From Candidatus Poseidoniales archaeon (GTDB lineage Archaea > Thermoplasmatota > Poseidoniia > Poseidoniales > Poseidoniaceae), in contig QQSC01000009.1 in the NCBI GenBank assembly GCA_003602475.1, forward strand, positions 67,267 through 121,784: DNA of 54,518 bases. Direction: 5' to 3'. Positions 10,585 through 33,733 of this stretch are shown here, one piece after another (within the stretch, counting starts at the first letter, position 1; each line of letters starts with the position of its first letter). Below the pieces are notes generated by a model. That model worked only from the letters and a program-made list of their open reading frames with translations. It had not been told where the DNA came from and did no database searches. The position numbers and the translations under genes are program-made.

Positions 10585-10634
10585 GACGTGCCGAGGGCGC
10601 AGGGATTTATGAACACAATTCAGCCTCCTCAACC

Positions 10635-11336: not shown

Positions 11337-11344
11337 GGCTGCTG

Positions 11345-14300: not shown

Positions 14301-15928
14301 CTTATGCACTGTACGTGTTGTCCGGTTCGCTCTTGCTTTTGGCGGTGACTCCCGTGATCACGTGGCAAACCCCGCTCTGGTTGAATCGAAAGAGCGCCAT
14401 CTCGCAACGCTGGGTGCGCCATGCGCCTCGCAACACCCTGGGCGCTGTTGGGGTTGGGTTTTTGCTTTGGACCATGGCGTTGGCACCGTTTGACCCGGTT
14501 CGTTCGAGCATGGAACCCAATGAACTTGCGTTCATTGTTCTCGGCCTTACTCAGGTTGCAGCAGGCGTGATGGTCCTCACCAGCCTTGCTCCACTCTTCG
14601 TCCAACGCTTGAGCAAGTCACGGTGGGTGACGAAGCGGACCGGGCCCATCGGTGCTGTGGCTTTGGCGCACCCCTTGGCAGCACCCTGGCGTTCTGCTGT
14701 CGTGATGGGAATGTTTTCAATCACCATGTTTTCAGTCGTCGTGCTGTCGGGTTACACCACTCAATTTGATACCTACTCAACTGGGTTTGTTGAGGAGGCA
14801 GAAGGCGAGTTCGAATTGATGATTGCTTCCAGTCGTTCAAGGCCGATTGACATTGACAACGACCCGGATTCGTGGGGTTTGGACGCCGATCTTGCCGAAC
14901 AAATAGATGCGGCTGGGCGCGTAGCACGAGCAACAGCTTTCCTCGAGGACGATGAGGGTCAACGCATTCCTTACATCCTTCGCGGCGTTGACAGAGGGTT
15001 CATCGAACATGGGGGCCTCCCGCTCTATGCCTGGGATGGTGCATTGGGTTCGACTTCCGACGATGCTTGGGAATCCATTGGACGCTTCAACAACATCGTG
15101 TTTCTTGATGCTTCATTCGGTTTGGAATCGGCAGCGGATGGAAGCGGGTTGTCTCCGATGCAGTTGTCCATTGGAGACGAGATCACCATCGTTGATTTTT
15201 CCAATCCAAAGAACACCCTTCGTGTGACCGTTGGAGGTTTCCTTGAACAGTCATCTTACCTCTTTTCTCCGGGTGTTTGGATGGCGTCAGATCCGGTGAC
15301 TGAGCAGTTCAGTGGCGAGGTGACAAGGATGTATGTCAGCCTTGCAGACGATGCTGAACCCTTTGATGCAGAATATTCGAGTCTTGATGTATCAGGTCAA
15401 GGAAAATCCGTCGACGTCAGGCGAGCCGCTCTTGAACTTGAGGACGCTCTCCAACAGGCCTTGGTGGATGATGGAGTGGTGGTTGACACGGTGGTGGAGG
15501 ACATCATGATCATTCAGGGGCTGGTGTTGGCCATTCTTGCGTTGTTCGAAGGTTACCTTGCGGTTGGACTGATCGTTGGAGTTGCTGGAATCGGTGTCGT
15601 GACGGTTCGAAACGTCAGTGAACGGAAACGAAGCGTGGGCATGTTGCGGGCCTTGGGTTTCCAACGGCGTCATGTCTTGGGCGTCTTCGTCATCGAAGTA
15701 ACTTGGTTGGCCGTTGTTGGGTTGTTGAACGGGCTGGTGATGGGGTACGGCTTCCATCGTATGTTGTATGAATCCATTTGGGCCGAACAAGGAGCCGCTT
15801 TCTTGTTCCCTTGGGGGAGGGTTCTTGCCTTGCTGTTTGGATGTTGGTTTGTCGTGCTTTTGGCTACCATGGCTCCAGTTCGCAGGGCAGCGAACATCCC
15901 TCCGTCTGCAGCCTTACGGAGTGTTTAG
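11345..15928 (+). CDS. Very large double FtsX/MacB-type ABC permease
   Basis: About 1527 residues. An N-terminal hydrophobic pair is followed by an amphipathic segment 'AKENIRRRPRQA' and a TM helix near 100-125. A large ectodomain runs to about 800; its part near 420-735 contains repeated short Trp/Tyr-Asp-Gly strands (for example VYHHDGQQALGAHDNG), resembling a beta-propeller. The first FtsX core is near 805-950 with the cytoplasmic RRKETAVVRAVG loop. Central TMs lie near 953-1140, a second ectodomain at about 1143-1386, and a second FtsX core near 1389-1527 with the matching ERKRSVGMLRALGF loop. This equals two MacB-like halves fused, so one chain may be the full permease. The start is uncertain: TTG 11345 lies 13 nt after GAGGAGG, and a weak CTG lies closer. 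Substrate unknown. Confidence 0.85.
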   Translation: MTGVLLTLGLMALSIAGLLASQCLRNLSRLRQTLLVVGSTADGLIGWLILTALGVSSLHALGGGALFGIVSFTYLQPMLVPQRWLMWRLAKENIRRRPRQAVLLVAGLVISSAIITSSLVVGDSLDATVLREVEASWDETDVLVAGFDQSTGLRVEFDQDLAERTWERIQTDPTLSSEVVGRQYGAVNVVSLSTNNSQAEPAVSWFARDAAVDAEGIWSPLGINNYRYIDVQAANDGALLPQIAVNKVASEALGVVSGDLLTMGYHTTSDGDRIRQESTVQVANVVAQTGQGASAGTQSPAVFTDLATAQQLTGSEGRLNRMSLSLHEDISSEAYDKVIERLTQTMAEEVTASDAGLNLTYDDTTASITLSSTQGLGRLSAQDVVALRENKTGLLPNTTLLEVLQVPLIDAVVEGAPLLSLADGDVTELHGTQTAVWHRGPGGFGVEHVANASTWVWQVESGDRLHDVVYHHDGQQALGAHDNGLVLASTAQIDDEDAGSVSDEGPYVAAEWFDDGWVTVLADDDRFELQGFNQGLERTFSHEVDVSRPSTVLRYELQIHDERLLLGIEGLLEMRWYEVHITPVNLSFDETDAPPEENGSVTPPEVCNGRAIATGPQGNIWCSVEGGLALVSSVDESVVGLRLPFLSDAPGFGTFPQMLLAFGGEGMAANVDEGNVSISPRLSALALNTTSNMSFTGLVPFAFGNDTATSLVPSSDYTSLPGLDSLSELEALVLGVISLEDAEVLALAEDDERSILLIQSNNSGFVLGEDALERLTAWFDERSTPTDMGLEMSAVKRDAAEQAEASSGVLSAMFLVFGSFTIAAGVLLSLTIIMLLADVRRKETAVVRAVGLQQSDARAMFVQEGLLLAMIAGAIGAVIGLALAWIIAVGFTSIFSSVGAQKFAFSFTMDSLIAGWVWGTLLAYVLLASSAIYNAQLNIVQAIRGARPRWNTSVPWGLLLMQVLALGGSILFLGVLLLSGRSTGFAYALYVLSGSLLLLAVTPVITWQTPLWLNRKSAISQRWVRHAPRNTLGAVGVGFLLWTMALAPFDPVRSSMEPNELAFIVLGLTQVAAGVMVLTSLAPLFVQRLSKSRWVTKRTGPIGAVALAHPLAAPWRSAVVMGMFSITMFSVVVLSGYTTQFDTYSTGFVEEAEGEFELMIASSRSRPIDIDNDPDSWGLDADLAEQIDAAGRVARATAFLEDDEGQRIPYILRGVDRGFIEHGGLPLYAWDGALGSTSDDAWESIGRFNNIVFLDASFGLESAADGSGLSPMQLSIGDEITIVDFSNPKNTLRVTVGGFLEQSSYLFSPGVWMASDPVTEQFSGEVTRMYVSLADDAEPFDAEYSSLDVSGQGKSVDVRRAALELEDALQQALVDDGVVVDTVVEDIMIIQGLVLAILALFEGYLAVGLIVGVAGIGVVTVRNVSERKRSVGMLRALGFQRRHVLGVFVIEVTWLAVVGLLNGLVMGYGFHRMLYESIWAEQGAAFLFPWGRVLALLFGCWFVVLLATMAPVRRAANIPPSAALRSV

Positions 15929-16051
15929 GTTGACTCCCTTCGTGTGAGCTGTGTTCAACTCCTTGTGCTCATTGACCTTCATAGCACAACGGGGACTGCG
16001 CCTTGTTGACACGAAGTAGGGTTATTAATTTGATATAAAACAAGTGGCCTA

Positions 16052-16061
16052 TAGTATAAAT
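16052..16061 (+). promoter_or_regulatory. TATA box of the 1066-residue surface protein gene
   Basis: TAGTATAAAT lies in an AT-rich stretch (16021-16062) that contrasts with the surrounding sequence, about 50 nt before the ATG. Transcription should start near 16084, leaving a 25-nt leader with GGGGG at 16097-16101, 7 nt before the ATG. A second TATA-like element, GATATAAAA, is at 16032-16040. The strong consensus suggests high expression. Confidence 0.65.
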
Positions 16062-16108
16062 ACCACGCATGTTGTAGGGTTACGCACCGAACCTTCGGGG
16101 GTATTGAC

Positions 16109-19100
16109 ATGAAGAATATGACAGCAGTTGTTTTGGCGCTGTTGATGATGACGAGTTATCTCGCTGTCGTTGACATGACCGAATTTGAAGAACCTTTGGC
16201 CGAAACACAGGAAACCAGCGCTCGTGCGGGCGCCGACCCCAGTGTGTTGGCCATCACCACACCGAAAGAAACCGTTTGCGATCTGAATGGATGCCGCAAC
16301 ACGCTTGAAGTTGGTCAATCAACCACATTCTCTGCCTACATCCAAAATGTAGGCGACGCTGCAGGCGATGATCTCGCTTACTCCGTGACGGTGTACCTCA
16401 CGGACTCCAGCGGTGCTGTGGGCAACATCGCCCAGGACGCCAATGGACAAGACCTCATGTGGGAAAACCTCGACGCTATGTGCGATGACGGAAGCGTCTG
16501 CGACTTTGACTCGACCGCCACGCCTCACCCCTTCCCAGCTAACGCCTACTTGGGCGGTGGCAAGCTCACCCTCCAACAAGGCGGTGCTGACATTGAATGG
16601 ACACCTTCAGAAGGCAACTACATCGTGCAGATTTCCGTTTCCAGTTTGACCGATGCTGACGTTGCCAACAACGTTGAACAAATCGACGTCACCGTGGCCG
16701 ATTGGGCCGATGTTGAGATCGACCTTTCATGGGATTCAAGCCCAGACCAAGACAGCTACACCATTCCTCAAGCAGACTCCACGGCGTCATTCACACTCTC
16801 CGTGACCGCTACAGGTTCTGACACCTTTGACCCTCGAAGTGTCAATGTTCGCTTGGCGTTGTCCGGGGACATCGATTCAGCCCAAGGCACCTTGAACGGC
16901 AACAGCGTCAATCTATCTCAAAACGCAGGCATCACCTACCTTGAGGCGGGCACCAGCACTTCTGTGGAGGTCTTCTCCAACATCACCGACCCCAACGCTA
17001 CGGTTCAATCCAACCGGAACGTGGTTGCCTACCAAAACACGTGGACCTTCCTTGGTACAGTGACTGTAGACAGCAGCAACAACGATTCCAGAGTGACCAT
17101 TGACGCAGAACTTGAGAACTACACCCTCTATGGTCAGTTCGATGAATGCGTTGAAACCTTCGTAGAAACGGATCCCGTGACTCAGGAAGAAACCACAACG
17201 ACCTACAACAACTTCTGTGAGGTTTTGGTCAGCAACGATGACCGTCCGGGAACCGATGAAGATTCGATTGCAGGAACCAAATCCACCTACCACGACATCG
17301 CTGTGTCTCGTGTCGGTGTTTACCAAGGGTACAACGCTGATGGCACCGGTCTTCCCTCCTCGTTCGTTGAAGCAGGCAGTGGCCAAGACCTCAATGTCGG
17401 TGTTTCTCGCCTCTACGCAGAAGTCCAACACCGTGGAAGCGATGCTCAAAACTCCTACGGATGGAACGTCATGTACAGCGTGATCAAGGACGGCGTGAAC
17501 GTCGCCAACGGCACCGTGAACGACTGCACCAGTGGATTGGAGATGAGTTACATGCACCAGCCTCTCGGTGGACAACCAGGTGCATCTTTGACCGGCTTCG
17601 TATGTGTTGAAGTGACCCTCTCGCCCGGAGAATACGAATTCAACGTGGAAATCATGATGGACGAACGTGGCAGCACCCCTCCAGAAGGACCGGGTTCATG
17701 GTCTGGCGCATTTGATGCCCGTTCGAGCAACGACGATGCCCGTATGGTTTCTGACGTGGTCAACAACCTCCCTCTTATCACTTCTTTTGAACTGGTGACA
17801 GAAGGTGAATTGGTCGTTGGAATGGAAGGACTTCTTGAATTCAGCGTCAACGCATTCGATGTCGATGACCCGTCCGGCTCAGGATTGATGTTCAACTTCA
17901 CCAACCAATACGGGGCCTTTGCAGGCTGCCAAGGCAGCGCTGCAGACGGAGCCACGTTGTGCTCCACCCCATTGACCAACGAGTACGTGGGCAACCTTGC
18001 TGTAAACGTGGTCGTCACCGACGCTCACGGCGGCGAAGTCAGTTCATCCATGATGCTCAACGTCTGGAACTCTGCTGTTGGAACAGCCACCAGCGCCGCA
18101 GGCGTTGAAATCGCTTACCCTCTGGAGTATTTCGCCAACAGTCAATTCACCATCACCACCTTTGAGGACGTGGATTTGTCCAACTACGCAGGTGTCGTGC
18201 TACCAGATTACACCGGTTCCTACGATGCTGTTGCTGCCGTGAACTACGTGCCAAGCACGACGTTCGCATCTGCAGACGTTCTTTCGCAAACCCTCACGCT
18301 GACCGTGGACAACACACTCGGGGCCACATCCTTGTGGTACATTGACAGCAACAACCGTTGGATCCTCTTCGACGGAACCTCTGCCGAATCAGGACCAACT
18401 CAGATGGAGTTCAGTTACGCAGTACCAGCCAACAGTCCAGTTGTTCCTGCCGGAACATTCGTGATGATGGGCGGGCAACTGGCCCAAGCCACCATTCCAA
18501 CGGCAACCGTGAGCGGCTTCTCAGTCAATTCCTTGCAAGCTGGTGCCATTGGCATCTCTTGGGACATCACTGGAACCCTTCTCGCCTCCGACAACGTTCG
18601 AATTTGCGTCAGTGACACCCCAGGCGTTGGCCTCCCCGATTGCGTGAACGAGTTCAACACCACAGTGCTCGATACGGACCGCTCCTACACCTACTCAAAC
18701 CGAGACTTGGCCCACGGCACCGTGCTCCATGTCAACGTGGCCGTGTGCAACGACCAAGGTTGCTCAACCGCCGGTATGGGTACAGCAACGGTCGACCGTG
18801 AGGTTGAAGGCGATGTTCGTGCCACCAACCTGCGTGTTAACGAAGACGGGGCCGACTGGGTCGTCTCTTGGGACATTGAAGGCAACACCGATGACGTCGC
18901 TATGTGGCATGTTTGTTACATGCGTGCAGAGGCATTCACGGCTGCAAACATGCCCACAAACTGCCCAGACAGTGTCATGGGTTCCGACGCCACAACGCTG
19001 ACCATCGCCAAGCCAACCGTGGCAGGTACATTCACGTACTACTTCACGGCCGTTCCTATGGACAACTTGAGCAACATGGACGCACAAGGTCAGATGAACA

Positions 19101-19309
19101 GCATCGATTACTTCCGTGCATCTGACAACACGAACATGGACGACAACAACGGGACCGTTGGTGAAACCGGCGACGGTGCTTCGTCCGGTATCCCAACCGC
19201 TGCTTGGGGCGCCATTGCTGGCGTCATCATCGTGGCTTTCGTGGTTGGTGCATTCATCCTCTCCCGAGGCGATGGTGAAGGCGGCGACGACGAGAAGTGG
19301 GATTACTGA
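16109..19309 (+). CDS. Secreted, C-terminally anchored surface protein (S-layer/adhesin-like)
   Basis: A 1066-residue protein with an N-terminal signal peptide (hydrophobic VVLALLMMTSYLAVV) and one C-terminal TM helix at about 1032-1052, followed by an acidic cytoplasmic tail (DGEGGDDEKWDY). The ectodomain is beta-rich and Thr/Asn/Asp-rich. An early segment with 'NVGDAAGDDLAYSVTVYLTD' resembles CARDB-type adhesion repeats. Further on are an Ig/cadherin-like part ('FDVDDPSGSG', 'VTDAHGGEVSS') and, near 800-1020, two fibronectin type III-like modules ('AIGISWDITG', 'DWVVSWDIEG'). Several cysteine pairs could form disulfides. It is probably a glycoprotein of the cell surface. It shares a leader design and anchor type with the giant gene downstream, and is followed by a hairpin/T-tract terminator. 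Confidence 0.85.
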   Translation: MKNMTAVVLALLMMTSYLAVVDMTEFEEPLAETQETSARAGADPSVLAITTPKETVCDLNGCRNTLEVGQSTTFSAYIQNVGDAAGDDLAYSVTVYLTDSSGAVGNIAQDANGQDLMWENLDAMCDDGSVCDFDSTATPHPFPANAYLGGGKLTLQQGGADIEWTPSEGNYIVQISVSSLTDADVANNVEQIDVTVADWADVEIDLSWDSSPDQDSYTIPQADSTASFTLSVTATGSDTFDPRSVNVRLALSGDIDSAQGTLNGNSVNLSQNAGITYLEAGTSTSVEVFSNITDPNATVQSNRNVVAYQNTWTFLGTVTVDSSNNDSRVTIDAELENYTLYGQFDECVETFVETDPVTQEETTTTYNNFCEVLVSNDDRPGTDEDSIAGTKSTYHDIAVSRVGVYQGYNADGTGLPSSFVEAGSGQDLNVGVSRLYAEVQHRGSDAQNSYGWNVMYSVIKDGVNVANGTVNDCTSGLEMSYMHQPLGGQPGASLTGFVCVEVTLSPGEYEFNVEIMMDERGSTPPEGPGSWSGAFDARSSNDDARMVSDVVNNLPLITSFELVTEGELVVGMEGLLEFSVNAFDVDDPSGSGLMFNFTNQYGAFAGCQGSAADGATLCSTPLTNEYVGNLAVNVVVTDAHGGEVSSSMMLNVWNSAVGTATSAAGVEIAYPLEYFANSQFTITTFEDVDLSNYAGVVLPDYTGSYDAVAAVNYVPSTTFASADVLSQTLTLTVDNTLGATSLWYIDSNNRWILFDGTSAESGPTQMEFSYAVPANSPVVPAGTFVMMGGQLAQATIPTATVSGFSVNSLQAGAIGISWDITGTLLASDNVRICVSDTPGVGLPDCVNEFNTTVLDTDRSYTYSNRDLAHGTVLHVNVAVCNDQGCSTAGMGTATVDREVEGDVRATNLRVNEDGADWVVSWDIEGNTDDVAMWHVCYMRAEAFTAANMPTNCPDSVMGSDATTLTIAKPTVAGTFTYYFTAVPMDNLSNMDAQGQMNSIDYFRASDNTNMDDNNGTVGETGDGASSGIPTAAWGAIAGVIIVAFVVGAFILSRGDGEGGDDEKWDY

Positions 19310-19915: not shown

Positions 19916-22900
19916 ATGTTGGGAAACAAGAATAAGAAACAGAAAACCGTCTTCGGCGGTATCGGAATTGCACTACTGTTGTGCGCGTTGATGGTGCTCA
20001 TGCCAATGAGTGGATACGTAGACAACACAAGTGCTGAAGTTGAGTTTGTGGAAGCAAGCACAACGGAGGATGAATTTTTCAGCCTCCCCGAGCGCATCGC
20101 TGAAGCAGACTATGAACTAAACCCTGCCCTTGAACTTCAGGGCATGCGTGATGAGACGACCAAAACGTACCTGAATGAAGACGGTACGTTCTCGCAGATC
20201 GTGACGAGTGAACCAATTCACTACTACAACGACGAAGGCGTTTGGTCCGACATCAACCTGAACATCCAAGCTCGTCCTGACGGATGGGCTGTGACCGAAA
20301 ACTCGTTCACGACCATGTTCGCTCCTGAAGCAGCTGGCGGGATGGCCATCCAGGCCAACCAGTTCGTTGACCCGATCTACTCCGGTATGAACCCCATGAT
20401 CGTGGGGCTCGATACCCTCCAAAACGAACCTTTCGTGATGGAATCTGCTCCTGCCCACACCGGCGTGGAAGTTGGCGGAAACGTCATCCGATACCCGCTC
20501 GCAGACGGCATGAACCTTGACTACACCGTGCAATCCACGGGCGTCAAGCAAAACCTCGTGCTTCGTGAAGCACCGATCATCCCTGAACACATCAACTACT
20601 TCGGTTTGAGTGAAGCCATGGTGTTGCCTGTTGGTTACGCCCTTTACTCTGGAGAAACCGTTGTCGGTGAAGAAATCTTGACCACTCAGGACCCTCTCCA
20701 CATCCGCAACGTCGAAACAGGAGAACTGCTCGCTGAAATCCCTGCCCCAGTGGTCGTCGAATCTGGCGATGCTGAGCCATACACTGGCACATTCGTGGTG
20801 CGTGCAAACGGCCCCAGCATCCTTCTCGTCACTCTCGTCGAAACCGATTGGCTCCTCTCCGAGGACCGCGTTTATCCCCTCGCCATTGACCCAACCATCA
20901 ATGTGAACTCGGCTTCCGGCGGTTACTGCTACATCTACTCCGCATCGTGCTACACCAGCACCACCCGTTACCACTACCGCAGTTACGGTACCTACTATTA
21001 CGTGCCATGGAACAAATTCACCTTTACTTCAGCCAACTCCCTGGCGCAAGGTGCTACCATTGACAAGATTGAATTCCGCAAGTACATGGCTTACGCCAAC
21101 GCTCAGAGTGTGAACTTCAATGTGGTCGTTCTCGAAGAGTGTGGCCTTGACGTGCGTTACAATTACGGCATCACCACCAACGCTTGCAACGGAAACCCCA
21201 TTGCCAGTTCAAAGATGGTCACCAACTACGGTGGATCCAATGCCCTTTCCCTGCTCTCTTCGATCGGCAACTCCCCAACAGCCGCTACAGTGGGCTCGAC
21301 CGGAACCGGCTGGAAGACCGTTTCTTTGTGCAGCACCTCCACGACCTGCAACGTCACAACCGACGGTATTGGTCACATCAAGGAAGCACAAGCCAACCTC
21401 ACGACCGTTGGAATTGGCGAACACTACAACACCAGTTCGTACTACAACACCCGCGCATCAGCCACGGGTTCGACCAACTCTCACATCCGTATCGTCTACT
21501 CTGGAGGTACCGATCCTGACGCCCCAACCGCCAGTTTCACACCTTACACAGGAATCGATTCATACATCGAAGGCGAGCGCACATTCTTTACCACGCTAAC
21601 CGACATGTCCGGTATCGACACCACGACTGCTGGCGCACCTTCTCTCCACTACTCGGTTGACAACGGCACCACATGGTCCGAGACCACCTACGGGCTTGGC
21701 ACCAACAGTGAATTTGATGGCGGCGAACTTGTGTCCGTCGGCACCTGCGGTACTTCCGACAGTGAGTGCACCTTCAAGGCACGAACTCCCGCCTTGGAAT
21801 ACGGCGACCAACTCCAGTACTACTGGGAATTCCAGGACCTGGCGCCCACAACACAGACGCCTGCTGGACCCAACACCGGATTTGAACCCGCTCTTGTTGG
21901 AAACCAGTCCACGCCCACGCCTTACACCGTCGATATTGTTGACCCCGAGGATGCTCCTGCTGACCACAAAAAGATGACCACCTTGTCCACCGATGTGCAC
22001 GCAAGCAGCCAATTCACGCCTCAAGGATTCTTCGACCGTCAAATGACCTACTACGCTCACAGCAACGAATACTTCTTTGAATTTGACACATCGGGCTGCG
22101 GTACCGGCTCACAACAGTGTTTCTACACGTCCACTTCTACCTTTTACGCCAACTGGCTGCTACGCTGGAACAACAACGTTCCAACCGGCTCCTACGGCAT
22201 GAACTCCGGTTCAACGTCCGGTAACATGGAACTCCGTGCTACCGACGGTGGATACTTGCAGATCAACGCCGCTGACGGCCCAGGAATGAACCTGATTTAC
22301 CACTACGACAGCGCCACCAACGAATGGGGTACTGTCGGCGTTGACACGGAGACTGGCATCGACACCATCCTCACCGGTGGAAGTTCGATGACACAATCTG
22401 TGTCTTACGGTTACACCTCAGCATACAAATTCTCCATCCCAGGAGACATCACCGGTACCTTCGGTAAGCACACCTTCAACGCCACCGGATCATACATCGA
22501 CAACTCCACCGGCTCCAACGTCACCATGTACAATGCAAACCGAATGTGCGTGACCACCAACGGATGGTATTACTTCTACCGCGCTGGCACCTACGACCGC
22601 TGCACCTCTGCTTACTACATGATTTACGGATCAACCACCAGCTACCGCTGGTCCGGATTCGCTCTTGGGTCGGGTTACTACGGCCGCCAAGCCACCTCCG
22701 GAACGATGACCTACAAGGTCGGCAACGTCGCACCGACACCCGACACCTTCGCACCAGAGTTCATTCACTCTGCTCTGGGAGATTCCCACTCGGGAACACG
22801 TGTCGTTTCTGTGCAAATCATTGACGCTGGTGACCCATCCTCCGGATTGAACACCACCGAGACCCCAGGTGTCGGACCCACAATGTACTACCGAGTGACG

Positions 22901-25900
22901 CCTGATGGCGGCACGGCAGGCTCTTGGAGCTCCGTTCTCATGGACGCTGAAGGCGTCTCTGACCCAGCCGATTGTGCCCTCGCAATGTGCACATGGACCG
23001 CTGACATCGAAGACCTCGAAGTCAACGACAGTGTGGATTACTACTTCACGGCCAAGGACACCTCCACGGTGAGTTCCACGCCCAACGCCAACACCTCATC
23101 CACCTTCGACTTTGCACGTGGCGACCCCAACAAGGTCCTCGTGGTTGAGTGGCGAGACCGCTCATACTACTACACCTACGGACCAATGTGCACCGTTCAG
23201 GCTCTCTTCTACGACGTGACCAACGAAATTGAATACAAATACGATTCCAACTGCCGCACGACCTACAACTCCTGGTCGATCGGTTACATGGACCAAACCC
23301 GACAAAAGGGTGACAGCATTTTGTACTCCTCGTCGACCAGTTACAACAACAACCCCGGCCACCAGCCAACATCCAACAACTACCGTATCCAGACCAGTGC
23401 CACAAGTCACGGCTGGGAATCCTTTGACCTTGGATTGACCGAAGTTGCCAACGCTAACACAGCGTTGTCCGGCACATCGGGTGGTACACCATACACCTAC
23501 TACTGCTGGTACTACTACTCGTCCTACCAGAACCAGTGCAACGCCAACGTGGACATCCCCGCCGGCTTTGAGTTTGATTACTTCGGCACAACCTACGACG
23601 GTGACGACACCAACGACCGAATGCAAATCGGCCGCCAAGGCTACATGTATTTCGTTGACAACGGCAACACCAACGTTGAGCGTGGTGTTTGGACATGGCA
23701 CAACCCACAACTGCCTTACAGCAGCAGTTCCATTGCTCGCCCCGGTCTGATCGCACCGTTCTGGTCGAACTACAACAACTACTACTGCTTCACCACCAGC
23801 ACCTCGGATTGTTCCACCTACTACCGCATCATGCCTTACGAAGGCAAGGGAACCGACGTTACCGCTGACATCACTGCAGACCCCAACTGGGATCTCACCG
23901 ACAGCCCGATTCGCATCAACCCAACCAACGACTACCTCGTTGTTTCGTCCGACTTGACGATTCAGCCTGGTGTGCAAATTCAGATTGCACCCGGCAAAGG
24001 GATCTCCTTTGACGGCGCTTGCACCCGTTTCACCGCCATTGGTAACGAATCGAGCCCAATCAACTTCACCGGTGTTAACAACGGCGAGTGGTTGGGTATG
24101 TCTTTCACCGACGACTGTACGACAGCCACCGGTACCGACGACCGACACCAGTTCAGCCATGTCAACTTTAACAACACAACCGATGCTGTGTTCCGTGCTG
24201 GATCTCGCCACAACGGCCAAGGTCCTTCGTGTGGAACATCAACCGCTGACTGCAACGCAGGAAACTTCACATTGAGCGACGTGACCTTCTCCAACGTTGG
24301 CTCCGTGTTCACTCACGGTAGCGGACAGGGTACGGTCATCACCATGACCGACTTCAGCATCAGCGATGTTGACGAATCGTGTTTCAACGTCCCTGAGGAT
24401 AGCATGTTGACGCTTATGGAAGGAACCATGACCAACTGCAACACTGACGGTGGTACCAGCGATGGTGCCGTGGTGAGCGTTGCCGGTTCCAACGGCGACG
24501 GCCTCCTCCACATGGAGAACGTCACGGTGACCAATGCGTACCAGAACTTCATCGATGTCGACCTCGAACACTTGTTCTTGTCCAACGTCTCGGTGACCAA
24601 CGCAGCATCCAGCCTCTACACCATGAAGGCCATCGACCACACGCCGACTCAGGCTACTTCTACGGCTTACTTGTTCAACGTCGACGTGCCCAACTACGGC
24701 ATGGACTCGAACATTGACGCCATGGAACACTTGACCCTCCACGACGTGGATTTGACCGACAACGACCTCGTGATCCGCCCCGGTGGTGCCTCTCAAACCG
24801 GAGCTGGCCCATCAAGCGCAGATGCGATTATTGACACACTCACCGCAGGTGACCTCACCATGGCCCGAGTGCATCCCGGCACCTTCGATGACCTCACGGC
24901 CGGAGACGTTACCATGTCCGGTAGCGCCATCACTTCTGAAACGATGAACATGGGCAATTTCGACATTGGATCCTTTGCCATCACCGGCTGCGGCTGGACC
25001 TTGATCATGGACACACCATCGTTGGACGACTTCAAGTCCTCTGCATCGTGCTCCAACTCCAAGAACACCGCTACCATCAACGATGCAACCTTCAACCACG
25101 GTTCACTGACAACGGACGTCATTGACGGACGAAACTCGATGATCACCGTTGGAGAGTCCACAATCACCTCGACCACCGCCAATGTGTCTACCGATGTTGG
25201 TAAGGCTCGCTCCGGTGCAGACCTTGTGTTGATCGACGTTTCCTTGAACGGGAACGACTGTGCTGACGAAAACGGTTCTACGGGCAGCTGTTCCGTTGAT
25301 GTTGCGACTTCAACGTCCAACCCGTCGATGGTCTACTACGGTGGCCTGGCTACTGTTCGCCTCTATCGAGTTGTCAACTCAGCCCCAGTCTGGAAGGGCG
25401 ACCACGTTGTGACCACCACCCTCGTGAGTGGCACGACCTCTGAACTCTTCCAAGTTGGATCGCACACGACCGACGCTAACGGCAACGCCAGCGTATGGGT
25501 TGTTGTGGCTGACAGCGACGGTACGACCTACGAGGACCACATTCTCCGTGCATTCGGAACTGCGGGACAAAACGAGACATACCCCAACGATTGGGGCGTC
25601 ACGTCCTTGGCCAGTTCATGGTACAACGACTCGTTCACCTGGGGCGACCACCTCAGCCTTGAGTTGACACCTGTCCCGATCTCGTTCAACGACCCCAACT
25701 TGGACTGCCAGACCTTGGTCAGCGACCCAGCCTGGTCCAATATCAGTGCCAACTACAACCCTGCTACGAAATTGTTCACCTTTGACGACACAACGCTCAA
25801 CGTGGCGGCCGACCTCTTGTTGGACGGCTGCGGTATCGTCCTCAACGGTGGTAAACTGCAATTCCAAAGTTCGGCTACCAACAGCCCAGTCATCACGTTG

Positions 25901-28900
25901 GCAGATGGAACAGGTAACTTTGCCGGTTCCAAGGGTTCCATCCTTGCAGACGATGGTGGAAGCAGTGGCAACAAGGCCATCATACGGTCGATCTCTTCGA
26001 CGTATGGACTGAACTTGGACATCCAATCCGGCTCCTTGACCCTTGACAACGCTGAGTTGCGAGATCTGGCTCAAGACGCTACCATGGATGCTGCTTTGTA
26101 CATTGGATCTGGTGCAACCTTGACCCTGCGCAATGGAGCCACCATTTACGGTTCAACGGCCTCATCAGATGACATGGCCACGGTCAAACTTGACGGTGGA
26201 ACGGCCAGCATCACCGATTCGACCATCCAAAATTCTGACACATCGGGAACTGCTCTCTGGATTGAGAACTCTCAGCCAGCCATTGACGGTATCACTGTCA
26301 AGGGCTCAGCAGTTGGTATCATGTCCTACAATGCCGCCCCACAAATCGAAGGATTCACCTCCAGCGGAAACACCGTTGGTGTCGAAACCTACGGCGGTAT
26401 GTCCTTGCCTACCATCTACCGGAGTTCTTCTCTGTCAGGTCAGGCAAACGGTTGGACCACCTACCAGTTTGACATGTCCAACTACTTGGGTGAGGGAGAT
26501 TATCTTCAACTTGGAGCCAACTCCATCTACGGTGGCGGTAACGCCCACCCATCGTACAACTACGCATCAAGCAAGTACTACTTCATCACCGATCGATACA
26601 ACGTCCAACTCGAAGACGACAGTGGCAACGTGTGGAACGTCACCAGCAACGACCAAACCGGATACTACCCCTACAGTTCTTCAGACCCTGCTATCAGCAA
26701 CTCTGAAGTTGGTAGTTACAACGGAGGTACTGGTGGAGCTCCATCATGGCACTGCAACTACTACTCGATCGACTACGGGCCCAACTACTTCCGAGAAGGA
26801 TACTACTACATCATGCACCGCATGTGGTTGGGGAAGTCCTCCTACAGCTCCTACGACAAGCCCGATGAATTCGGATTCGCTTGGGAAGGTGTCGACGGCT
26901 TGACCCCTACTGGAACAAGTGCCTACCCGTACCGATACTGGGGTTACTACTCCCCATCGTTCTACTTCAACGGTGTCTACAGTCCTCCAGAAGGACCCAA
27001 CGGACAACCAACGAACGGACCTGGACAACCTGGTAACATCGGCAACCCACTCAGCTACGCTTCGGGTGGATACTACAACAACTACGGTGTCTGCTTGGAT
27101 TACGCTTACACGTACTTCATGCAAAGTGGACAGGGTGCTCGATTGACCATGCCCATCGTGGACATCTCCGCCAGCAACATCACCAAGGTGTCCCTCTGGG
27201 TTGACGTTCTTCACCGAGGCAACGACAACTACCAAGACCGTTACGAGTTTGTCGCTCGCGCCGGAAACGATCCAGGTGAACTGGGTGATTACCTCCGCGA
27301 GTCTGGTACCCCCTTGTTCGCCAACGGTACCATCACGGATGCTGACTACGGAATTGACGTCGGTGGCGCATTCGCCGCTGGTGTCTTTGAGAACATCACG
27401 GTGACGGCCCCAACCTACGCTGGTTTGCACGTGACCGGTCAAGCCGCCTCTTCGTTTGACGGACTTACTGTCACCGATGGTGACTACGGTGTCTTGGTCG
27501 GCTCCGCCGGATCCGGCAGCTTCCACCTCAACAATTTGGACCTCAACGACCAAGACCTTGCAGGTATTTACTACCTCAACGACATCAGCGGAGACGTCAC
27601 CGGTTCCATTGAGGATTCTGCTGGACCAGCGTTCAAGTACGGTTCCGGAACCAGCAAGGACATCACATTCAGTGACATGTCCATAGAAAACAACTCTGTT
27701 GGAATAGATGCTGGCGGATCGGGTGATTTCACTCTGACCAACGTGACCATGAACAACACGGCTGATGTTGAAATTTCAGGGTCCTCCACCATGGACTTCA
27801 TTGAAGGTACAGTTGACACCTCCATCGTGTCTGTAACTGGCATTGGTCAGTTCAACCGACAACGTCTGGTTGACATCACTGTTCAGGCCAACGTGTCTTC
27901 GAACACCACCAACGTGTCGGATACACTCGTGGTCTTGAAGGACAACAACGGAGCGGTGCAAGCACAAGTTGAAACCAATACCAACGGTGTTGCAGAAGGA
28001 CTTACTTTCACGACCCAAAAGGTGGATTCAACCGGAGTTACCGTTTTGAGCACCACCGGATACGAAGCCGTTACTGTGGCGAAGATCGGGAACTACTACT
28101 ACACTTCATCAAGTGATAACAACGGAGATTTCCGATACGACTTCCACGACATGACCCTGACGGACAACTCAGGACAACTGTCCACGATGTATCTTGAGGA
28201 CACATTCACGGCTCGACTGTGCTACGGCTTCTCGTCCAGTTCCTACATCTTCCAGGAAACCTGTGCAAGCGGTCTATCGACAAGTCAATCTCGAACCTTC
28301 AGCAACGGTATGACGGAGTATGGGTACTACTATTCCCACGACGACTCTGACCTCGCTGGAGAAACAGTGATGATGGATTCACCGTTCTTCTATCTTGACA
28401 ACGGCAACCACAACTGGAACGGCAGCACATGGATCTCCACAGCTTCCTACGACTACTACGGTACCAACATCATGTACATGCGAAGCAATTCCGATACGAA
28501 CGTCTACTTCAGCGATTCAACGGTGACCGCCCTTGGAGTTTCTGATTCTGGAGACAACCAAGGATTCTCCCTTGGTCGACTCTACAACCCAATGGACCTT
28601 GTGATGAACAACACCAGCATCTCTGGACTGAGTGTCATCTACGGTTCCATGGCGTACAAGTACACCTGGAGTTCCACGAACCACCACACGCTTGAAGAAT
28701 TCCAAGTGACCAACAGCACGTTCACTCACTTCCGTGGATACCGTGACGGTACCAGCCTCAACTACGAGGATTCGTGCATCGCCATGACCGGTGGTGACGG
28801 CGCTGTCATCGCAGACAACAACTTCGACAACTGCATGATTGGTGTCTTGATGGACCTGTCACCGTACTCCTACACGCACTCTCGCAGTGAATACGGATCC

Positions 28901-31900
28901 GACAACCTCACCATCAGTGGAAACACCTTCGTCAACGGTGGCGAAGTTGCGGACATCTACGGGGACCCCAACAACAACGTTGACGGTCTCATCGTTTCGG
29001 GCAACACCATGAACCCCACCAGCGGTGGAAGTGGAATTGCCATTCAAAGCGGATCTGCGAAGGACATGGTCATCTCAGACAACACCATCAACAACGCTGC
29101 AGACGGTATTTACCTCCGCTCGGTGATGAACTTCACCATTGATGACAACACCATTTCTGGTGTGAGTGATGCCTCCGAAACGGGTATCCTTGTCTACGGC
29201 GGAAGCGGTGATGTGATTGACAACACCTTGGTTGACGCAGACGGTGGACTTTACCTCTACCAGATGGAATCGCCTCCTTCACCATCTTCTGCTCTCTGTG
29301 AAATCAGCTCGAGCGATTACCGCCGATCGACGTCCTGTTCATGGACGCTTGCCGCAGGAAAGGAAGCAGCGTTCAACCTCGGAACCGACAGTTGGGGCTA
29401 TGAGATCAGCATCACAGTTACGTTGCCAAACGGCACCACCGACAGCTGGCCCACCTACACCTTCAGCAGCAACACCAACTACAACCCGTTGAAGACCTAC
29501 ACCGACCCTGGAAACTACACGTTGACCGTGAGTGACTCGTTCGGTGACGGTGGTGCAACCATCACTGTTTTGGAGTCCTCCTCTGGCTCAACCGGCTATG
29601 TTGGACCTACGGTCACCGGCAACACCATCGGTGTCAGCCCAGGCCGTTCAGCGCCCAACGCACAAGGACTTGTTATGCTGGATTGCGATGGTGTTAACAT
29701 CCAATCTGGAACGAACGCCATTACGCTAACCGACAACGCCATGGTGATTGAGAACTGTGACGTTTCTGACACTGGGTCCGTCCTCGTGGGTACCGACACT
29801 GCTTCCACCAACGGTATCTTTGGTGATGACAGCAACTCAGCTCTCTCGCTGAACGGAACCGACATCAGTGGATTCGCTACTGGTGTCATCAAGGAAGGCG
29901 GTGTTCTGAACATGTTCGGCGACGCTGACATCACTGGTGTTGATTACGCCGTTTACGCCGACGACACCGAAGTGATTGCCATCGGCGCCAGTGTTGACGG
30001 AGGAACTGCAGGAACAGGTCTCCACGTTGTCGACAGTGACAACGTGTGGGTCTATCCAATGGATGCGTCTGGACTTGTTGGAATGTACGTCGAAAACACA
30101 CCGTTCCGCTGGGACGGTGGTGAATCCGACGCCACGACAACCTTGTCTGTTGTTGATGCCATCGGCAGTGTTGAGAACATGACCTGGTCAGCCTCATCTA
30201 CGCAGATTGACGCCGGTTCAGGTGCGCATGTCACTTCGATTGGTAACACATTGAACCCATCGAGGATCAACGTGCACACCACCGCAGTCATCGACGAAGC
30301 CAACCTCTTGTCAATGGAAACGAACCACCTCGGTGCCTCTCCTACCAACGAAGTTGCTTTGCTCTTGACCTCCACGGACAACGAGCGTGCTTCCTACGTG
30401 TCGACAAGCTTCCAGCCTGAAGTCATGACCGTTGACGGATCCAACAACGATTGGGTTGGTGGCAACGCCCTCAACCCCGCTGGATTCGCTATGCCAGGTA
30501 ACATGAGCGGTGACGGAACTGACGATTTCCTCGTGACCTACATTGAAGGCGACGGTATCTACTTCGGTATGACCGGAGCCGACCTGTCCACCTCTGACGT
30601 GATGATTTACCTCAGCGTTGACGGCGGTGGCAGTGATGTCGGCTACAATGGACTCGGCGGTGCTCACAACCTCCCATTCAACGCAAATTACGTGTTGTGG
30701 GCAGACAGTGAAGCCTCCAATGACCTGTACAGTTACGGCTTCCTCGGCTGGGGTCCCTCCAGCCTGAGCACGGCCAACACGGACGTTGACTTCTCCACTT
30801 CCGTGGCTGAGTTGTACATCCCATGGAGTCGTCTTGGCGGCATGCCCGACCAAATCGATATCGTGGCTATTGTGCAACAAGAAACAACTGCAGACATTGA
30901 CGTGGTTCACCCCATGCAAACCATTGACGCTGGCACAACTCAACAGAACTTGACCAAGTTCATGACCGTTGAGCTGACCAAGGATGACCTTGCAACCGGT
31001 GAACTCGACGATGAAGTTCTGGTCTACCGTTCCTACAAGGGTTCGATCACGCCATCAGCTGCTAAGGAATACAACCTCATGGTCAAGACCGACGCAGATT
31101 GCGCTCAAGACTGGGCCATTGTGGAAGACATCTCGGTGGCCACCAACGTGGTCTTTGATTCAGGGTACACAGCTGGCACCGGTGAAACTACCGATGTTCG
31201 CTCAACCATTGACATCTTGCGAGCATGTCCAGTTATTGACACGGTTGGAACCAACCCGGCAACTGACGGACTGGTTGACTACAGTGTTGATGAAGACTCG
31301 AACGCCTACACCTTCAGCCTCACCGATTTGGCTGACGACGTGCAAGACTTGGAAGCTGACTTGACATGGAGCATGACGGAAGGAACGCTTGTGGCACACG
31401 ACAACGTCTTGGTGGATTGGGTTCAGAACGGACAAAGTGTAACCATCACACCTCTCGATGACCAATTCGGAACCGTTGTCTTCGCCTTTGAGGTGACCGA
31501 CAGCAACGGATTGACCGATGACCACAACATCACCTTCACCGTTGACAACATCAACGATGCTCCGGTGATCTGCAACATCGAGCGCGCCGACTGCATGCCA
31601 ATCCTCTCAGAAGACGATGGTTTCAACAACATCCTGCCCGAAGGCTTCGGCACACACACCAAGTTCCTTGGTGACGTCTCGAACACCACACGTTCGTACA
31701 TCCGTGACATGGCCAACGAGCAAGCGCCCACCCGCCAGGTCTACAGCTGGACCGCCATGGCTTACAACGACGGCACCACCAACGCCTGTTCCGCTTTCTC
31801 TGTGGACATTGACAACAACGAGTTGACGATTACCGAGAACGCGAGCAACGAACTTGGTGGCACCTGTGACATTGTCATGGGTCTGTCAGACAACGGTGCT

Positions 31901-33733
31901 GAAAACACTGCAGCAAGCCCATTGACGATTGAGTTCAACGTGTCCCCTGTCAACGATGCACCTGTCATCCTTGATTGGAACCGAACAACTTCGACGGTGA
32001 TGACGGCCGACAACGGCTCGATTCCTGCTTTGCCATGGTCGATCTCCCTCATGGAAGACGACACCAGTATTGCCAACCTCACGTACGACATGTCGGCCAT
32101 CAAGGACGATGTTGACCACGAGATGAGCGACTTGACCTGGACGGTTGAATCAACGGACCAATGTGTGTACACGAACTACTTCACCACGAACATCGTTGGT
32201 GACGATCTTGTGTTCACCCTCATCGAAGACGCTACCACCAACGCCAACGATTGGGAAATCGACTACTTGAACGACAACGGTATCCACCAAATCGGACCGT
32301 CTGGTTCTGAATACTGTCAGATCCGTTTGGTTCTTCGAGACACCGCTGTGGCTCCAAGTTACAACCCCAACTACGGAACCATGGCCATTGCTGACTACCA
32401 GCAAGGTGTGGCCACCAAGGAAATCGGTGTGCGTGTCGAAAACGTCCGTGAGCAAGTGCCAGACTACGCCTTCAACGATGAAAGCGGCTTCTCGTTCAAC
32501 GGCGTGTCCAACGTCATGACCGGCACCTATGTGCCAGTCACTGTGACTGTGGATGCCGGTGGCGACGAAGGACCTTACCGATACGACCACATGTTGGCTG
32601 TAACCTTCCACACGGATGGTCACGACGACGTTGAATTGACACGGTACTACACCGTTCCATCCTACGGCCAGGACGTTGCCATCACCGAAGACGTGTTCGT
32701 CACTCGAGACACCACCCATGTGTGGGTCGAGATGGATGTGCTGACCTGTTTGGACAACCCGTGCGACTTGACAGCAAGCACCGCTGATCGCTTCCAAGTT
32801 GATGAACCCGCATCTCACTATGCGACCATCAACAACGTGCAAAGCACCGATGCTTGGTCCAAGCCTGGACAATACGGTAAGGACGCAACCAGCACCTCGC
32901 AACGCCGACCTCTCCTTGAGGACAGCAACTGGTGCAACAACATCATGACCTCACTCGAGACCGCTGATGTCTGCAACCATGCGAACCAGCCTGCCAGTGC
33001 GTTCCTGTCAACCGACCAGAACATGCCCAATGTCGTGGACACCATCGGAGCAAGCTCCGTGCCATCGTTCGCACCAAGCCTTGTCGCTGTGTCATTGGCC
33101 GGTCTCTTTGTCGGAGCCCTTACCCTCTCCAGCCGACGTGCTGACGATGAGGAAGAGGTCGCTTCCATGAAGGACGATGAAACTGCAGTCAGCCCTGTGA
33201 TCGCTACCATCCTGATGGTGGCCATCACCGTGGTCCTCTCTGGTGTCATCTATGTCTGGGCTTCCAGCCTTGCAGAAACTGACGTGAAAGGAGTGCCTCG
33301 TGTGACCTTTGATATCGAAGACATCAACGGTGTTGACGTTGACCAAGGTCACTGGCGTATCTCAGTCCAAGCGACCGAGACCGATCTGGCGACCCAAGCA
33401 GTGGAAGTCCGTGTGGACTACCCCAACGCTACCGGCGGACTTGAGACCGTGGTTGTTAACCTCGCAGAAAGCAGCGGTGTGTACGGATTTAACCCGTCCA
33501 ACAGCGATGCCTTCGTGATGTTTGTTGATTCAGTTGACCGTGAACAAACCGGCGAAGACGAGTTCCGCTCGGTCTCGACCTTCAACACCGGTGACACGAT
33601 CTTCGTGCGAACCCACGCCCCTGACGGCACGCCTCTTGAAGGCGCAACCATCACGCTGACCTATGCCCCACCTGGTGGCGACGGTGCACTGTTGAAGACC
33701 TTCTCCGGATTGAACTACAACAAGGCTGTTTGA
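19916..33733 (+). CDS. Giant modular cell-surface protein (4605 residues) ending in an archaeal pilin module
   Basis: Signal peptide: KNKKQK, then a hydrophobic helix at 13-32. About 40-330 resembles the N-terminal domain of bacterial YD/RHS and DNRLRE wall proteins, ending in YPLAIDPTI. About 332-530 is DNRLRE-like. Ig-like, Tyr-rich and bending-strand modules follow, including 'FDYFGTTY...APFWS' (about 1220-1290). Several right-handed beta-helix blocks (about 1304-1790, 1959-2162, 2465-2630, 2820-3120, 3222-3480) show 'I-x-D-N-T-I' repeats. About 3490-3670 is a CBM9/DOMON-like sandwich, and about 3780-4180 holds cadherin-like repeats (NINDAPVI, PVNDAPVI). A TM helix lies at about 4385-4405 with SSRRADDEEE, then the pilin module 4418-4605. 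One uninterrupted frame with uniform codon bias supports a real gene. Probable role is adhesion to particles or other cells, possibly glycan binding. No peptidase or glycosidase active site was recognised. Confidence 0.88.
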   Translation: MLGNKNKKQKTVFGGIGIALLLCALMVLMPMSGYVDNTSAEVEFVEASTTEDEFFSLPERIAEADYELNPALELQGMRDETTKTYLNEDGTFSQIVTSEPIHYYNDEGVWSDINLNIQARPDGWAVTENSFTTMFAPEAAGGMAIQANQFVDPIYSGMNPMIVGLDTLQNEPFVMESAPAHTGVEVGGNVIRYPLADGMNLDYTVQSTGVKQNLVLREAPIIPEHINYFGLSEAMVLPVGYALYSGETVVGEEILTTQDPLHIRNVETGELLAEIPAPVVVESGDAEPYTGTFVVRANGPSILLVTLVETDWLLSEDRVYPLAIDPTINVNSASGGYCYIYSASCYTSTTRYHYRSYGTYYYVPWNKFTFTSANSLAQGATIDKIEFRKYMAYANAQSVNFNVVVLEECGLDVRYNYGITTNACNGNPIASSKMVTNYGGSNALSLLSSIGNSPTAATVGSTGTGWKTVSLCSTSTTCNVTTDGIGHIKEAQANLTTVGIGEHYNTSSYYNTRASATGSTNSHIRIVYSGGTDPDAPTASFTPYTGIDSYIEGERTFFTTLTDMSGIDTTTAGAPSLHYSVDNGTTWSETTYGLGTNSEFDGGELVSVGTCGTSDSECTFKARTPALEYGDQLQYYWEFQDLAPTTQTPAGPNTGFEPALVGNQSTPTPYTVDIVDPEDAPADHKKMTTLSTDVHASSQFTPQGFFDRQMTYYAHSNEYFFEFDTSGCGTGSQQCFYTSTSTFYANWLLRWNNNVPTGSYGMNSGSTSGNMELRATDGGYLQINAADGPGMNLIYHYDSATNEWGTVGVDTETGIDTILTGGSSMTQSVSYGYTSAYKFSIPGDITGTFGKHTFNATGSYIDNSTGSNVTMYNANRMCVTTNGWYYFYRAGTYDRCTSAYYMIYGSTTSYRWSGFALGSGYYGRQATSGTMTYKVGNVAPTPDTFAPEFIHSALGDSHSGTRVVSVQIIDAGDPSSGLNTTETPGVGPTMYYRVTPDGGTAGSWSSVLMDAEGVSDPADCALAMCTWTADIEDLEVNDSVDYYFTAKDTSTVSSTPNANTSSTFDFARGDPNKVLVVEWRDRSYYYTYGPMCTVQALFYDVTNEIEYKYDSNCRTTYNSWSIGYMDQTRQKGDSILYSSSTSYNNNPGHQPTSNNYRIQTSATSHGWESFDLGLTEVANANTALSGTSGGTPYTYYCWYYYSSYQNQCNANVDIPAGFEFDYFGTTYDGDDTNDRMQIGRQGYMYFVDNGNTNVERGVWTWHNPQLPYSSSSIARPGLIAPFWSNYNNYYCFTTSTSDCSTYYRIMPYEGKGTDVTADITADPNWDLTDSPIRINPTNDYLVVSSDLTIQPGVQIQIAPGKGISFDGACTRFTAIGNESSPINFTGVNNGEWLGMSFTDDCTTATGTDDRHQFSHVNFNNTTDAVFRAGSRHNGQGPSCGTSTADCNAGNFTLSDVTFSNVGSVFTHGSGQGTVITMTDFSISDVDESCFNVPEDSMLTLMEGTMTNCNTDGGTSDGAVVSVAGSNGDGLLHMENVTVTNAYQNFIDVDLEHLFLSNVSVTNAASSLYTMKAIDHTPTQATSTAYLFNVDVPNYGMDSNIDAMEHLTLHDVDLTDNDLVIRPGGASQTGAGPSSADAIIDTLTAGDLTMARVHPGTFDDLTAGDVTMSGSAITSETMNMGNFDIGSFAITGCGWTLIMDTPSLDDFKSSASCSNSKNTATINDATFNHGSLTTDVIDGRNSMITVGESTITSTTANVSTDVGKARSGADLVLIDVSLNGNDCADENGSTGSCSVDVATSTSNPSMVYYGGLATVRLYRVVNSAPVWKGDHVVTTTLVSGTTSELFQVGSHTTDANGNASVWVVVADSDGTTYEDHILRAFGTAGQNETYPNDWGVTSLASSWYNDSFTWGDHLSLELTPVPISFNDPNLDCQTLVSDPAWSNISANYNPATKLFTFDDTTLNVAADLLLDGCGIVLNGGKLQFQSSATNSPVITLADGTGNFAGSKGSILADDGGSSGNKAIIRSISSTYGLNLDIQSGSLTLDNAELRDLAQDATMDAALYIGSGATLTLRNGATIYGSTASSDDMATVKLDGGTASITDSTIQNSDTSGTALWIENSQPAIDGITVKGSAVGIMSYNAAPQIEGFTSSGNTVGVETYGGMSLPTIYRSSSLSGQANGWTTYQFDMSNYLGEGDYLQLGANSIYGGGNAHPSYNYASSKYYFITDRYNVQLEDDSGNVWNVTSNDQTGYYPYSSSDPAISNSEVGSYNGGTGGAPSWHCNYYSIDYGPNYFREGYYYIMHRMWLGKSSYSSYDKPDEFGFAWEGVDGLTPTGTSAYPYRYWGYYSPSFYFNGVYSPPEGPNGQPTNGPGQPGNIGNPLSYASGGYYNNYGVCLDYAYTYFMQSGQGARLTMPIVDISASNITKVSLWVDVLHRGNDNYQDRYEFVARAGNDPGELGDYLRESGTPLFANGTITDADYGIDVGGAFAAGVFENITVTAPTYAGLHVTGQAASSFDGLTVTDGDYGVLVGSAGSGSFHLNNLDLNDQDLAGIYYLNDISGDVTGSIEDSAGPAFKYGSGTSKDITFSDMSIENNSVGIDAGGSGDFTLTNVTMNNTADVEISGSSTMDFIEGTVDTSIVSVTGIGQFNRQRLVDITVQANVSSNTTNVSDTLVVLKDNNGAVQAQVETNTNGVAEGLTFTTQKVDSTGVTVLSTTGYEAVTVAKIGNYYYTSSSDNNGDFRYDFHDMTLTDNSGQLSTMYLEDTFTARLCYGFSSSSYIFQETCASGLSTSQSRTFSNGMTEYGYYYSHDDSDLAGETVMMDSPFFYLDNGNHNWNGSTWISTASYDYYGTNIMYMRSNSDTNVYFSDSTVTALGVSDSGDNQGFSLGRLYNPMDLVMNNTSISGLSVIYGSMAYKYTWSSTNHHTLEEFQVTNSTFTHFRGYRDGTSLNYEDSCIAMTGGDGAVIADNNFDNCMIGVLMDLSPYSYTHSRSEYGSDNLTISGNTFVNGGEVADIYGDPNNNVDGLIVSGNTMNPTSGGSGIAIQSGSAKDMVISDNTINNAADGIYLRSVMNFTIDDNTISGVSDASETGILVYGGSGDVIDNTLVDADGGLYLYQMESPPSPSSALCEISSSDYRRSTSCSWTLAAGKEAAFNLGTDSWGYEISITVTLPNGTTDSWPTYTFSSNTNYNPLKTYTDPGNYTLTVSDSFGDGGATITVLESSSGSTGYVGPTVTGNTIGVSPGRSAPNAQGLVMLDCDGVNIQSGTNAITLTDNAMVIENCDVSDTGSVLVGTDTASTNGIFGDDSNSALSLNGTDISGFATGVIKEGGVLNMFGDADITGVDYAVYADDTEVIAIGASVDGGTAGTGLHVVDSDNVWVYPMDASGLVGMYVENTPFRWDGGESDATTTLSVVDAIGSVENMTWSASSTQIDAGSGAHVTSIGNTLNPSRINVHTTAVIDEANLLSMETNHLGASPTNEVALLLTSTDNERASYVSTSFQPEVMTVDGSNNDWVGGNALNPAGFAMPGNMSGDGTDDFLVTYIEGDGIYFGMTGADLSTSDVMIYLSVDGGGSDVGYNGLGGAHNLPFNANYVLWADSEASNDLYSYGFLGWGPSSLSTANTDVDFSTSVAELYIPWSRLGGMPDQIDIVAIVQQETTADIDVVHPMQTIDAGTTQQNLTKFMTVELTKDDLATGELDDEVLVYRSYKGSITPSAAKEYNLMVKTDADCAQDWAIVEDISVATNVVFDSGYTAGTGETTDVRSTIDILRACPVIDTVGTNPATDGLVDYSVDEDSNAYTFSLTDLADDVQDLEADLTWSMTEGTLVAHDNVLVDWVQNGQSVTITPLDDQFGTVVFAFEVTDSNGLTDDHNITFTVDNINDAPVICNIERADCMPILSEDDGFNNILPEGFGTHTKFLGDVSNTTRSYIRDMANEQAPTRQVYSWTAMAYNDGTTNACSAFSVDIDNNELTITENASNELGGTCDIVMGLSDNGAENTAASPLTIEFNVSPVNDAPVILDWNRTTSTVMTADNGSIPALPWSISLMEDDTSIANLTYDMSAIKDDVDHEMSDLTWTVESTDQCVYTNYFTTNIVGDDLVFTLIEDATTNANDWEIDYLNDNGIHQIGPSGSEYCQIRLVLRDTAVAPSYNPNYGTMAIADYQQGVATKEIGVRVENVREQVPDYAFNDESGFSFNGVSNVMTGTYVPVTVTVDAGGDEGPYRYDHMLAVTFHTDGHDDVELTRYYTVPSYGQDVAITEDVFVTRDTTHVWVEMDVLTCLDNPCDLTASTADRFQVDEPASHYATINNVQSTDAWSKPGQYGKDATSTSQRRPLLEDSNWCNNIMTSLETADVCNHANQPASAFLSTDQNMPNVVDTIGASSVPSFAPSLVAVSLAGLFVGALTLSSRRADDEEEVASMKDDETAVSPVIATILMVAITVVLSGVIYVWASSLAETDVKGVPRVTFDIEDINGVDVDQGHWRISVQATETDLATQAVEVRVDYPNATGGLETVVVNLAESSGVYGFNPSNSDAFVMFVDSVDREQTGEDEFRSVSTFNTGDTIFVRTHAPDGTPLEGATITLTYAPPGGDGALLKTFSGLNYNKAV
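33167..33733 (+). other. Archaeal type IV pilin module at the C-terminus of the giant frame, with possible internal start
   Basis: From the ATG at 33167 the frame encodes a 188-residue unit with all parts of a stand-alone archaeal pilin. It has a short charged leader MKDDE, the hydrophobic TAVSPVIATILMVAITVVL-type N-terminal helix (archaeal pilin/archaellin N domain), VIYVWASSL, then a beta-rich head. AGAGGT lies 7 nt before this ATG, a fitting ribosome-binding site. No stop separates it from the surface protein's own C-terminal anchor (RRADDEEEV). It may be a true fusion, a separately translated pilin, or a precursor cut by prepilin peptidase on the cytoplasmic side. Confidence 0.6.

Follow-up and report, generated by a model that had tools for sequence, protein, structure and literature searches.

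A pilin module joined in frame behind the membrane anchor of a giant surface protein and conserved in two families of Poseidoniales

The window, a 54,518-nucleotide stretch from a Candidatus Poseidoniales archaeon (assembly GCA_003602475.1, contig QQSC01000009.1, positions 67,267 to 121,784 of the forward strand), contains an open reading frame (ORF) in which a giant surface protein with its own C-terminal anchor runs on without interruption into a complete type IV pilin/archaellin-like module. This fusion, noticed earlier in a sequence-only reading of the window, was confirmed, and the same join is present in relatives. The favored interpretation, to which we give a probability of about 0.42, is a conserved chimeric surface protein whose loop between anchor and pilin stays uncut in the window's family, the Poseidoniaceae, and whose captive pilin docks the giant onto the pilus system.

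The giant ORF is a single unbroken frame of 4,605 codons closed by a TGA stop. Its features are listed below; TM1 and TM2 denote the first and second transmembrane helices.

19916 to 33733, plus strand: giant fused ORF, 4,605 amino acids (aa), defined by the frame and by fused homologs
19916 to 20035, plus strand: predicted N-terminal signal sequence, MLGNKNKKQKTVFGGIGIALLLCALMVLMPMSGYVDNTSA, read from the translation, its cleavage point left uncomputed
28895 to 29257, plus strand: NosD-type beta-helix of the ectodomain (Pfam PF05048, 30.3 bits against a cut-off of 23.6)
31277 to 31540, plus strand: weak bacterial Ig-like match (Big_9) of the ectodomain (Pfam PF17963, 18.2 bits, below the cut-off of 23.6)
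32471 to 32815, plus strand: pre-anchor domain, predicted beta domain with a high predicted local distance difference test (pLDDT) score; in secreted paralogs joined straight to the pilin head
33059 to 33139, plus strand: TM1, first anchor, residues 4382-4408, VPSFAPSLVAVSLAGLFVGALTLSSRR, predicted to run from outside to inside (VPSFAPS...SRR, with SRR as the cytoplasmic end)
33140 to 33184, plus strand: acidic loop or pilin "leader," residues 4409-4423, ADDEEEVASMKDDET, predicted cytoplasmic, the least conserved part, with no FlaFind-like site in the window protein
33154 to 33169, plus strand: AGAGGT and ATG 33167, candidate internal start, unconserved and unsupported
33185 to 33274, plus strand: TM2, pilin H-domain helix, residues 4424-4453, AVSPVIATILMVAITVVLSGVIYVWASSLA, the most conserved segment
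33275 to 33730, plus strand: pilin/archaellin-like beta-sandwich head, residues 4454-4605, predicted to lie outside the cell (AlphaFold2 [AF2] model and Foldseek)

The C-terminal 188 residues matched Pilin_N (Pfam PF07790) with 36.2 bits against a cut-off of 25.2 (E 1.2e-8), and the module matched the NCBIfam model arch_flag_Nterm with 34.2 bits against a cut-off of 20. With these matches and a frame open throughout, the in-frame pilin module at the giant's C terminus stands as first described, and its coordinates were correct. The module carries a class III H-domain sequence, and the helix begins at residue 4424 rather than behind an N-terminal signal as in archaeal pilins. For TM2 and the 152-residue head, the AF2 model reached a mean pLDDT of 81.9, and the top seven matches of a Foldseek search of the PDB were archaeal filament subunits (best 5z1l, E 8.3e-5). 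The best matches comprised archaellins of Methanococcus, Halobacterium, and Methanocaldococcus and a Cuniculiplasma filament, with ArlF (4p94, E 0.01) lower. TM-scores were about 0.3 to 0.4, which places the likeness to the archaellin/pilin-type beta-sandwich at the fold level only. A larger two-domain model gave only weak multidomain matches in the PDB search.

TM1, loop, TM2, and head shared one frame in all 115 fetched loci, and at least 465 open codons preceded the helix in each of them; some genes occur twice in this set, from two collections, and one comparison counted 82 distinct sequences. Relatives with a stop before position 33167, the observation said to speak most directly against the fusion, were looked for, and neither a stop at the junction nor a split form of giant and pilin was seen among the 115 loci. 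An apparent internal stop in genome G030 was the terminal TAG, and in G086, G098, G154, and G248 the frame passes through the join and stops at the end of the head. Eighty named loci were picked by helix patterns, so helix invariance among them is biased; a pattern-free set agrees, with small changes. When the last 277 residues were used as the query, 32 of 59 near genomes gave the fused protein; where contigs allow, its frame is about 4,500 to 4,750 codons long. Of the near genomes without a fusion match, G006, G007, and G017 contain the giant's N-terminal part in a frame that, judged from its length and position, appears to hit the contig end; the fusion was also undetected by this search in G009, G018, G019, G022, G038, and G042. 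The class-wide search of 244 genomes returned more than 110 with strong matches across the join, the single-contig genome G060 included. These strong matches were confined to the two families of the order; a third family (f3) gave weak matches only, and the ones listed were short frames of the free-pilin type. Wherever the 641 residues ahead of TM1 were strongly matched, the genome had the pilin as well.

The second helix is the part under the strongest constraint. Among 17 sequences, the ratio of nonsynonymous to synonymous differences (pN/pS) was 0.055 for TM2, 0.27 for TM1, 0.38 for the loop and head, and 0.40 to 0.44 for the preceding stretches, with pS of 0.58 to 0.71 in all segments. The low value for TM2 next to divergent synonymous sites indicates that the helix is kept by protein-level selection and not by recent copying. 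Over a short matched stretch, the fused helix was mostly 47 to 70% identical to that of the free group A pilins, which have AGVL where the fused proteins mostly have SGVI.

The fusion also follows the pilus genes, being confined to genomes that encode type IV pilus machinery. The source genome encodes the archaellum operon (L073), two more T2SSE/T2SSF clusters (L077 and L078), free pilins, and an archaeal prepilin peptidase, which was missed with PF01478 and found with PF06847; the peptidase is encoded in nearly all fusion-bearing genomes. Of the six sister-family genomes with two or more T2SSF genes, four have the fusion, versus none of the 18 others (Fisher p = 0.0014, a guide only, because the genomes are related). 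Genomes G043 and G057 (drafts of 85 to 88% completeness) have the fusion and free pilins without an archaellin; conversely, G037, G041, and G056 have an archaellin match but neither Pilin_N nor the fusion, and five sister-family genomes have an archaellin without the fusion. From the patterns of these two sets of named genomes, occurrence of the fusion is linked to type IV pilins, not to archaella.

The topology first proposed, with the junction on the cytoplasmic side, is likewise supported. By its signal sequence the giant would lie outside, and the arginines conserved behind TM1 are in keeping with an inner end, so that the loop would be cytoplasmic and the head outside. In four paralogs (L076, L213, L214, and the partial L215), the pre-anchor domain is followed directly by the head, without the hairpin, and both domains are therefore compatible with adjoining positions outside the cell. 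Some of these paralogs have a C-terminal membrane anchor and calcium-type DxDxDG repeats.

Archaeal prepilin processing needs G, A, or S at -1 and a charged residue at -2, the latter being critical for recognition (PMC4371748). The window protein reads TAVS at this place, with no alternative FlaFind-like site. The two families of fused proteins were split by the helix motif, ILMV versus ILLV, a split that agrees with the genome family wherever this is known for the fused proteins checked. Among fused proteins, the -2 residue is charged in 5 of 90 in the window's family versus 18 of 21 in the sister family; among free pilins, it is charged in 63 of 70 (31/35 in group A and 32/35 in group B). 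Ten residue types occur at -2 in the window's family, and on the tree of 95 fused sequences the position changed at least 19 times, among 11 types. No FlaFind-like site was present in 52 of the 90 proteins of the window's family, and one was present in 19 of the 21 of the sister family. By these patterns, a predicted cuttable internal site is conserved in the sister family and mostly lost in the window's family.

In the favored interpretation, the N-terminal signal would export about 4,400 residues of mostly beta-rich ectodomain, and TM1 would bring the chain back to the cytoplasm. After some 15 mostly acidic loop residues, TM2, the type IV pilin H-domain, would recross the membrane outward, leaving the pilin/archaellin-type head outside, adjoining the giant's last own domain. 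The loop of the window's family would most likely stay uncut, so that the hairpin holds the module in the membrane as a captive pilin. Its helix and head may then serve to dock the giant, which would act as an adhesin or scaffold; the docking partner may be the type IV pilus machinery, the base of the pilus, or another pilin. This comes near to the surface protein tethered into a pilus that the earlier reading had proposed.

Several observations weigh against this interpretation. A FlaFind-like site was present in 38 of the 90 fused proteins of the window's family, mostly DA^AV or ES^AV and one residue upstream. The fused proteins of the sister family keep the canonical site, and all 111 fused proteins have alanine at -1, with AVSP kept, as if processing were still selected. 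The source genome's second free pilin (group B, L078 16554-17069, G000:C2) has alanine at -2 (RRDDA-AVSP), an exception among free pilins, and a neutral -2 residue may therefore be tolerated. By sequence, no homology could be detected between the head and those of free pilins, which leaves a relation by fold only. The fusion was not detected in two of the six sister-family genomes that have pilus machinery, and the giant has no operon link to pilus genes.

Part of this evidence speaks for a precursor that is cut, a serious if tentative possibility. The prepilin peptidase would cut at A4424/V4425 in the loop between TM1 and TM2, giving a mature start of VSPVIAT (VSPVIATILMVAITVV); the giant would stay on TM1, and a pilin of about 181 residues would be freed 1:1 to serve as a minor or tip pilin, with the giant perhaps keeping its hold on it by way of the neighboring domain. 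The canonical charged, Ala, Val, Ser site of the sister family and the invariant alanine with AVSP fit such a cut, as do the wide occurrence of the peptidase, a cytoplasmic loop that suits the enzyme, and the paired outer domains, which form one unit in the paralogs. Against it, the rule-fitting site is absent in the window protein and in more than half of its family, and the free pilins of the same genomes keep theirs. We know of no case in which an internal class III signal is used in this way, which also counts against a cut. Release by the peptidase is thus uncertain. Because the sites of the sister family are intact, the ancestral giant may have contained an internal, in-chain type IV prepilin, cut between the two membrane helices, with the cut lost in Poseidoniaceae and the captive pilin then tying the giant permanently to the pilus machine; as a whole, this history is somewhat doubtful.

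That TM2 and the head are a pilin-derived spare part, serving as a second anchor and an extra outer domain without pilus contact, is unlikely. The secreted paralogs carry the same head without the helix, so the head can function alone, and the missing operon link fits such a part. A bare anchor should, however, drift like TM1, whereas the constraint on TM2 is about fivefold stronger and its sequence nearly that of the free-pilin helix; the fusion also tracks the pilus genes.

A role like that of ArlF, in which the module fixes the archaellum motor to the surface layer, is very improbable. Archaellins rank first in the fold search and ArlF is among the matches; ArlF has been reported to be secreted at full length and to bind the S-layer (PMC8667602), and the archaellum operon is located some 23 kb upstream of the giant (L073, G000:C53:47300-67266, positions 9328-16758; two archaellins, an archaellin-like small gene, T2SSE, and T2SSF). 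The fused genomes without an archaellin and the unfused sister-family genomes with one speak against this role, and the archaellin-like small gene, a candidate stator gene, is already in the operon. In several other Poseidoniaceae, the T2SSF gene and the giant's end show a similar spacing of 36 to 39 kb.

Internal initiation at ATG 33167, which would yield a separate pilin from the same mRNA, had been suggested because AGAGGT precedes this ATG; it does, by 7 nucleotides as claimed, but neither element is conserved. Relatives have ATC, TTG, or CTC in place of this ATG; an ATG occurs in the same stretch in 41 of 95 sequences, with at least nine changes on the tree, and besides the window only one close relative showed AGAGGT. 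Three of the 111 in-frame internal ATGs have a Shine-Dalgarno-like match of at least 5 nucleotides, ATG 33167 among them. With such matches elsewhere in the frame and this one absent in most relatives, the AGAGGT/ATG pair carries little weight, and the internal start, highly improbable, was rejected on conservation. A lost stop or chimeric contig is hardly credible and was also rejected: the source genome is a draft of 53 contigs, but the identical join recurs in more than 100 genomes of independent studies and in one single-contig genome.

The adhesion pilins are among the closest known systems. The haloarchaeal PilA1-PilA6 share the AVSP-type H-domain, near identical among paralogs, and the Haloferax volcanii site is DAVS or RAVS (PMC4371748). 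They are free small proteins with an N-terminal signal, whereas the signal of the giant is internal, after 4,400 residues and another helix, and in the window's family its charged residue at -2 has been lost. Free pilins of group A in Poseidoniales (MKNENRNEE-AVSPVIATILMVAITVVLAGVLYVW) have nearly the same helix as the fused proteins but are unfused, mostly keep the charge at -2, and have heads without detectable sequence likeness to the fused head. The H-domain of the haloarchaeal pilins has roles in the membrane besides pilus assembly. The stators ArlF and ArlG share the archaellin-type beta-sandwich and membrane helix and do not belong to the propeller filament (PMC8667602). They are separate proteins of the archaellum operon, whereas giant and module form one chain, encoded outside that operon, that tracks pilins and not archaellins. 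In PilB-type modular pilins, an extra module is reportedly grafted onto a cleavable N-terminal pilin. The giant resembles modular pilins such as Streptococcus sanguinis PilB (PMC8179133) in the covalent joining of a pilin module to a functional module, but in reversed order, with the giant first and joined through a membrane hairpin at the pilin's N terminus. A text search of open-licence papers found none describing the giant-anchor-loop-pilin architecture, which is weak evidence. The parts are known; we know of no precedent for their order or for the processing site's apparent loss.

The VPSFAP motif before TM1 (33059-33076) is conserved, as VASFAP or VSSFAP in the sister family. It resembles archaeal VPXXXP sorting signals, a resemblance only. 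An archaeosortase match (PF09721) was not found in the source genome, nor above the cut-off in the 59 genomes, and with no sorting enzyme found the reading as an archaeosortase substrate was rejected. Subthreshold exosortase-like ORFs of about 333 to 355 aa occur in seven sister-family genomes (L039-L042). Directly upstream of the giant, the window encodes an apparently secreted protein of 1,066 aa with its own C-terminal anchor and no family match (16109-19309), and an ABC ATPase-like ORF followed by a 1,554-aa FtsX-type permease (10635-15928) precedes these surface-protein genes. Genome G033 encodes two very large free pilins of 701 and 622 aa with an N-terminal pilin helix (L074 1200-3302 and L075 1375-3240), the latter with repeats resembling carbohydrate-binding modules.

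Since the join is kept in well over 100 related genomes, it is real and probably functions to connect a giant surface protein with the pilus system. Marine Group II (MGII; Poseidoniales) archaea are the most abundant planktonic archaea of surface waters and have lacked cultured members (PMC6461757). The fused chain offers a single defined gene with which particle attachment by MGII could be examined. By differing as they do, the two families provide a natural experiment on prepilin processing, and if the favored interpretation is true, a type IV pilin is able to act as part of a larger membrane protein.

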